A DNA stretch of 64,000 nucleotides. Source: Cloacibacterium rupense (GTDB taxonomy: Bacteria; Bacteroidota; Bacteroidia; Flavobacteriales; Weeksellaceae). Shown in pieces: positions 23,626 through 52,863 of this stretch. Position numbers and translations under genes: made by a program. Each line of letters opens with the position of its first letter. Position 1 is the stretch's first letter. The stretch covers positions 124,001 to 188,000 of the forward strand of contig NZ_BMLV01000004.1 in the NCBI RefSeq assembly GCF_014645495.1, written 5' to 3'. The notes below the pieces were generated by a model, which had not been told where the DNA came from, did no database searches, and saw only the letters and a program-made list of their open reading frames with translations.

Positions 23626-23680
23626 ATATGAACTAAATTTCTATTTTATTCTAAGTTTTCTTAAAATACTTGATTGTAAC

Positions 23681-23772
23681 TAGCCCTGATTACAGCGGTT
23701 ACCCCGCAGTAAGCGTTGGCTTTTATGAAAGCGATGGAACGAGGAGTAATAGCGGAAAGCAGGTTCTCGGCT
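23681..23772 (+). ncRNA. Candidate structured RNA element, copy A
   Basis: The order is TAGC-CCTG-ATTAC-AGCGG, a variable hairpin, then GTAAT-AGCGGAAAG-CAGG and GGCT. CCTG (23685-23688) pairs with CAGG (23760-23763). TTAC pairs with GTAA and CC with GG inside; AGCC (23682) pairs with GGCT (23769). Copy B at 52.68 kb shares AGCGG and AGCGAAAG but has CACG/CGTG in the outer helix. From memory this resembles a recurrent flavobacterial intergenic motif, possibly Flavo-1 RNA, but I could not check. The strand is chosen from that motif; the gap lies between two minus genes. Confidence 0.5.
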
Positions 23773-23782
23773 TCTAATAATT

Positions 23783-52337: not shown

Positions 52338-52535
52338 TTTTTGTAACACAAAGTTCTCGGAGATTTTCACAAAGTTCACAAGGTTTTTTAAGATTTTTGA
52401 GAGGCTTTGCTTTTGGGAGTTTTCTGTTTTCAAAATGAATGATTCTTTTTGTAACACAAAGTTCTCAGAGATTTTCACAAATTCACAAAGAGTTTTAAGA
52501 TTTTTGAGAGGCTTCGCTTTTGGAAGTTTTTTGGC
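52338..52535. repeat. Two direct repeats of about 90 bases
   Basis: Copy 1 (52338-52424) and copy 2 (52446-52535) share TTTTTGTAACACAAAGTTCT, GAGATTTTCACAAA, TTTTAAGATTTTTGAGAGGC and TTTTGG-AGTTTT. They are roughly 90% identical, separated by 21 bases. No gene is supported in them; one minus frame stays open across both, giving a repeated low-complexity peptide that I treat as chance. Confidence 0.85.
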
Positions 52536-52660
52536 GCGAGCGAAGCGAGTGTCGATTGTTTTCAAAGTTTGGAACGTTCACAAAATTCCTCTTCTTTGAA
52601 GGGGTGGATTCAAAAATTTATAATTTTTGAAGACGGGGTAGTTTAGAAAAGTGAAAAGAA
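52530..52660. repeat. Dispersed flavobacterial repeat fragments
   Basis: GAGCGAAGCGAGTGTCGATT at about 52542 recalls the 23.58 kb phrase. CCTCTTCTTTGAAGGGGTGG, then GACGGGGTAG, follow, with an AT-rich palindrome (AAAATTTATAATTTTT) between. The gap 52272-52922 (651 bases) consists of these repeats, structured element B and the tpiA terminator; I see no gene. Confidence 0.55.
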
Positions 52661-52678
52661 AAACTGCCCGTGAATTTT

Positions 52679-52780
52679 AGCCACGATTGAGCGGCGTGTT
52701 TGAATATTTTTATAAATTTTTGTTGGATTAAGCAAAGGAAAATTTATAAAAATATGAGTAGCGAAAGCGTGTCTGAAAGT
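52679..52780 (+). ncRNA. Candidate structured RNA element, copy B
   Basis: TAGC-CACG-ATTG-AGCGG is followed by a 17-bp perfect inverted repeat (ATATTTTTATAAATTTT at 52704-52720 with its complement at 52739-52755), then GAGT-AGCGAAAG-CGTG-TCTG. CACG (52682-52685) pairs with CGTG (52768-52771). The frame of conserved blocks is the same as in copy A at 23.68 kb, while the outer helix differs by compensating bases. Confidence 0.5.
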
Positions 52781-52863
52781 AAAAGTAATCCCAAAACGTG
52801 TGCTTCTAAAACTACACCGTCAAAAATTTATAAAATTTTTGCCATCCCTTCTAAAAGAAGGGG

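Follow-up and report, generated by a model that had tools for sequence, protein, structure and literature searches.

Two intergenic elements, A and B, in the window (the whole 64,000-nucleotide stretch of Cloacibacterium rupense DNA analysed here) are divergent members of Flavo-1 (Rfam RF01705), and we put at roughly 60% the probability that Flavo-1 is a REP-like, non-autonomous folded repeat, with a folded strand that would be the substrate of a host factor, and not an independent small-RNA gene. The REP-like repeat is preferred to a discrete sRNA gene because the copies show neither a conserved promoter nor a conserved terminator and take no overall direction relative to genes, and because they are kept at orthologous sites while their flanks and tips change. 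The two elements and their parts lie in the window as follows.

23681..23777, + strand: copy A, complete element, from its TAGCC through the GCTTCTAA tail (cmscan with RF01705, G004 ortholog, paralog boundaries)
23682..23684, + strand: closing helix P1 of A, 5' strand AGC (P1 covariation across copies; sequence reading)
23770..23772, + strand: closing helix P1 of A, 3' strand GCT, then TCTAA (P1 covariation; sequence reading)
23685..23763, + strand: arm P2 of A (sequence reading and cmscan alignment)
23685-23688 / 23760-23763, + strand: outer helix of A's P2, CCTG/CAGG
T23690-A23758, T23691-A23757, G23695-C23753 and C23696-G23752, + strand: further pairs of A's P2
52678..52809, + strand: copy B, complete element, from its TAGCC through the GCTTCTAA tail (cmscan with RF01705; orthologs below tpiA in G002, G005 and G006)
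52679..52681, + strand: closing helix P1 of B, 5' strand AGC (sequence reading; P1 covariation)
52802..52804, + strand: closing helix P1 of B, 3' strand GCT (sequence reading; ortholog comparison)
52682..52771, + strand: arm P2 of B, with a long A+T-rich tip hairpin (sequence reading; z -3.56 for the folded strand)
52682-52685 / 52768-52771, + strand: outer helix of B's P2, CACG/CGTG
52772..52801, + strand: variable second segment of B between P2 and the 3' strand of P1 (P3 position)

The original prediction had paired A and B on common blocks in the same order (TAGC, ATT, AGCGG and AGCG-AAAG), on a compensatory change of the outer helix and on unlike inner hairpins, and had guessed at Flavo-1. 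The sequences and block order are as described; two of the four outer pairs (CCTG/CAGG in A, CACG/CGTG in B) are changed on both sides, and the inner hairpins differ in both sequence and length, that of A having the inner helix TTACCCC...GGAGTAA. The Flavo-1 guess proved well placed, as RF01705 is the best match of either stretch at the E-value level, although both scores lie under the Rfam gathering cut-off of 42 bits: copy A reached 32.4 bits over 23678-23770 (E 2.3e-5 by cmscan of the short stretch; E 7e-5 when the entire C. rupense genome was searched), and copy B reached 23.5 bits over 52675-52778 (E 0.0066, short stretch). A gathering-level Rfam scan of the window returned tRNAs only. 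The ends needed correction, since the elements run on to near 23777 (A) and near 52809 (B), where the 3' strand of the closing helix and a CCTAAAA-type tail are found.

The alignments and pair counts place the conserved Flavo-1 core with its P2 pairing in both copies. As B's ortholog in G006 (63.1 bits) and L017, an own-genome paralog with A's inner subtype (46.0 bits), pass the cut-off, A and B are best regarded as divergent Flavo-1 members rather than catalogued ones. Copy B is borderline by its own score and is secured by the G006 ortholog. At its site below tpiA, four of the seven species of the genus compared carry an element (own genome G000, G002, G005 and G006) and three are without it (G001, G003 and G004). 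The outer sequence of the tpiA-site elements is common to them (TTTTAGCCACGAT or TTTCAGCCACGAT ... GCGTGT ... ACGTGTGCT), and the inner P2 comes in three different subtypes; together with the G006 score, this makes B a true Flavo-1 element with an exchanged inner arm. The ortholog of A is near-identical in G004 and is missing from G005 and G006, A's neighbour gene having been located in all three. That A and B resemble each other by chance, as A+T-rich intergenic hairpins might, deserves practically no credence: B alone reaches only 23.5 bits, and A by itself folds no better than its shuffles in the free-energy test (z +0.95, an uninformative value; z -3.56 for the folded strand of B), but this is already refuted by the B orthologs and the same-subtype A paralogs, and the family search also stands against it.

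Two sets of smaller repeats were observed around copy B. The palindrome GGCGCGAGCGAAGCGAGCG lies beside it (window 52533-52555) and recurs in intergenic DNA and in Flavo-1 tips (L011, L027, L262); GATTGCTTCACTTCGTTCGCAATGACA is likewise found within Flavo-1 tips, so that repeats are nested in repeats. In addition, a direct repeat, GTGAAAAgaaac..gaaagcgt, flanks one Flavo-1 subtype in the own genus, 5' of TAGCC and within the P3 segment (window 52640-52669 and 52777-52801; flanks of L058, L040 and L036).

Considered as a family, the Flavo-1 unit is intergenic, chromosomal and about 85-130 bases long. The Rfam model, of 76 positions, appears to cover one arm only, the full element being larger. 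Comparison of flanks placed a closing helix, P1, just outside the model; AGC/GCT is its common form, GCAGC/GCTGC, GCGTG/CACGC, GCAAT/ATTGC and GCGCC/GGCGC are among the other forms, and CCTAAAA or CCCAAAT comes next. In 53 of the 89 copies that lack TAGCC, the helix pairs with the 3' strand of the same copy over four or more bases; with shuffled partners the number never exceeded 34 in 500 rounds. Some subtypes have a second arm between P2 and P1. P2 itself contains an A-G mismatch and purine-rich internal loops edged by G and A (GNA facing GGA); its tip differs between copies and sometimes holds other repeats.

Covariation within the arm was analysed in 115 copies from named flavobacteria, one per record stretch. 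Pairs 10-67, 14-63, 18-59 and 19-58 are Watson-Crick in 113, 114, 113 and 109 copies, with shuffle maxima of 59, 55, 81 and 82 of 115, and these four variable pairs reassort in at least 30 combinations. On the Rfam strand, exceptions to Watson-Crick pairing are G-T rather than A-C by 73:14 overall (core 15:2, tips 58:12), and by 35 to 4 in the tips of named species alone. G-T and A-C would be equally frequent in a cruciform or in a palindrome undergoing decay; the asymmetry shows that a single strand, in the Rfam orientation, is selected to fold, and it rules out a symmetric cruciform. G-T pairs are still rare, at 2-3% of variable pairs (7/67 in a small tRNA control). Since RNA and single-stranded DNA both tolerate G-T, the excess fits either equally well and does not separate the two. 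DNA exposed at replication or in transposition has, in our estimate, about an even chance of being the strand concerned; RNA within whatever transcript covers the element is possible but the less probable of the two.

The mechanism that we propose starts from this fold. Selection acts on one strand to form the closing helix P1, the main arm P2 with its freely varying tip and, in some subtypes, the second arm, and the folded single strand may then serve as substrate of a host factor. The outer part would be recognised, and the tip would merely close the arm.

The distribution of the copies is that of a multi-copy flavobacterial family. A search of the C. rupense genome gave 38 matches to Flavo-1 at E<=1 (19 of them above the cut-off), and the seven genomes of the genus (G000-G006) have 24, 9, 29, 30, 31, 24 and 28 matches at E<=0.001. 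Other members of the order range from 0 to at least 89 at the same threshold, with none in many relatives, and no match at E<=0.001 was found in 14 control genomes; single-genome searches gave 110 matches in G014 (E<=0.01) and 123 in G055 (E<=0.001). A pattern scan fixing the 5' side only returned at least 80 stretches among the matches listed, from hosts that include, again among the matches listed, Flavobacterium, Chryseobacterium, Epilithonimonas, Halpernia, Kaistella, Polaribacter and others. Plasmid, phage and viral collections yielded no Flavo-1 match with the queries used, and spread via plasmids or phages was rejected on that ground.

Within G014, an identity of 90% or more is reached by 49 pairs of copies, and identical 19-base tips are present at five sites. 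Near-identical copies resemble each other no more than background once the left end is passed, and the same holds 8-12 bases beyond the right end of the model; because similarity is lost at the element ends, these comparisons show that the unit was copied as a block. Alignments at the A, B and DHH loci gave no clean target-site duplication or empty site. One further arrangement was seen in this genome (G014:C1:1445083-1445305), where a head-to-head pair of Flavo-1 copies, of different subtypes and separated by 32 bases, resembles a composite BIME.

Persistence is best seen at a DHH-family gene locus, compared in 23 species of G014's genus. The element occupies the corresponding position in many of them (L394 is without it), despite divergence of the left flank and the exchange of tips and pair states. 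Flavo-1 copies persist at orthologous sites over long periods; other flavobacteria lack the element. Such long retention suggests either selection or continued replacement by conversion.

Transcription signals bear directly on the possibility that Flavo-1 copies are independent trans-acting small-RNA genes, as the Rfam type 'Gene; sRNA' implies. Besides that label, the strand-specific fold with its G-T tolerance and the strong covariation agree with such genes. Against them, a flavobacterial-type promoter was found upstream of 0/99 copies from named species and a terminator-like site downstream of 2/99, and some genomes have more than 100 copies. Moreover, in the published transcriptome of F. 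psychrophilum, Flavo-1 matches are sense and antisense to transcripts, with many outside any, so that no consistent transcript strand emerges (PMC9723704). We consider independent sRNA genes quite improbable. Of the folded RNA originally predicted, selection of the fold on one strand is upheld by the covariation and the G-T excess; the discrete RNA is not, given the missing promoter and terminator and the even orientation.

Gene context and orientation were also informative. Gene contexts in the broad sample do not differ from the local baseline, divergent pairs included, and orientation between tandem genes is even (33:29). No neighbour gene recurs apart from those of orthologous housekeeping loci, and an association with particular genes was rejected for this reason. 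In the own genus (G000; 20:5, counts that include some orthologous copies) and in G014 (46:23), most copies have their Rfam strand antisense to the tandem genes around them. A general antisense rule drawn from the own genus failed in the broad sample; the antisense bias in the own genus and in G014 is a hint of some effect connected with transcription there. Such a bias, the asymmetry of G-T over A-C and the frequent position of copies 10-50 bases from a stop codon are what one would expect of a cis-acting RNA in mRNA untranslated regions, acting in stability, processing or termination. The even orientation and baseline contexts of the broad sample count against it, as does the lack of a U-run after either strand, and we regard a cis-acting RNA as unlikely, though it is the strongest of the competing explanations. 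A flavobacterial transcription terminator, for which stable hairpins near stop codons could be cited, is very improbable: no strong T-run follows the element on either strand, the copies lie between divergent genes as often as intergenic regions in general do, and where tpiA has the element, a separate classical terminator precedes it.

Copies also occur in strand blocks along two chromosomes. On G014:C1, 79/109 copies fit two arcs (0/500 shuffles), with 72-78/109 across skew-based choices of origin and terminus, and gene orientation contributes to this fit; on G055:C1, 86/123 fit two arcs (4/500 shuffles), which do not lie clearly on replichores with sparse GC-skew sampling. A replication-strand bias was not accepted, given the unclear arcs of G055 and the contribution of gene orientation in G014. 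In G055, copies are sparse from 2.1 to 3.2 Mb.

The repeat reading invites comparison with several known systems. As catalogued (Weinberg et al. 2010, PMC2864571), Flavo-1 shares with A and B the core UAGCC..GAU..AGCGG and AGCGGAAAGCGG, the P2 pairs, the intergenic location and the flavobacterial host range; A and B differ in their scores below the cut-off, in having P1 and some second arms outside the 76-position model and in giving no sign of a discrete sRNA gene. REP/REPIN sequences with their RAYT proteins are likewise short, intergenic, imperfect palindromes with internal loops, dispersed as units in about 10 to more than 100 copies. However, Flavo-1 is larger, is closed by a helix and carries a tip that varies; neither a GTAG nor a CGTC tag was recognised, and C. 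rupense and G014 have no RAYT-length gene, nor does one stand beside the copies. Their Y1 proteins number one each, of IS200 length, and none of 20 Y1 loci scanned has Flavo-1 alongside; from Y1 length and the lack of adjoining Flavo-1, RAYT linkage was rejected for both genomes. MITEs and ERIC- and BOX-type repeats resemble Flavo-1 as non-coding, structured, intergenic sequences dispersed in one bacterial lineage, but the strict compensatory change of the core sets Flavo-1 apart, and no conventional terminal inverted repeats or target duplications emerged from the comparisons. In the attC sites of integrons, too, the outer part of a folded strand is conserved and the inner hairpin is free to vary, whereas Flavo-1 copies, with no recurrent neighbour gene, are single between ordinary genes and apparently not in cassette arrays. 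It is also conceivable, though rather improbable, that Flavo-1 represents a class of mobile repeats in flavobacteria whose moving form is a folded single strand, closed by the terminal helix of the element. Such a repeat would have neither a RAYT nor an IS200/IS605 partner, and would either use an unrecognised mobilising enzyme or spread through its folded RNA in the manner of a bacterial SINE.

The scan of Y1 loci touched on a second Rfam family. Matches to Acido-Lenti-1 (RF01687) below its cut-off (31-35 bits; cut-off 37) stand beside IS200-type Y1 transposase genes, at L218:1369-1416 and 1956-2003 (on both sides of the gene), L213:1944-1988 and L219:1343-1390 (own genome, G000 C2, near 438 kb). 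This suggests that the Acido-Lenti-1 'sRNA' of Rfam is the end structure of an IS200/IS605-type element.

The Flavo-1 family was already known. To it this analysis adds a closing helix and a tail beyond the limits of the Rfam model, the identity of the strand that folds, the boundaries of the unit and the absence of sRNA-gene features. The function of Flavo-1 has been blank since 2010, and a 2022 review counts it among the most abundant sRNA families (PMC9029176). If Flavo-1 is a dispersed folded repeat, thousands of flavobacterial 'sRNA' annotations would be misleading; with the fuller structure, the strand that folds and the limits of the unit defined here, the question becomes testable.
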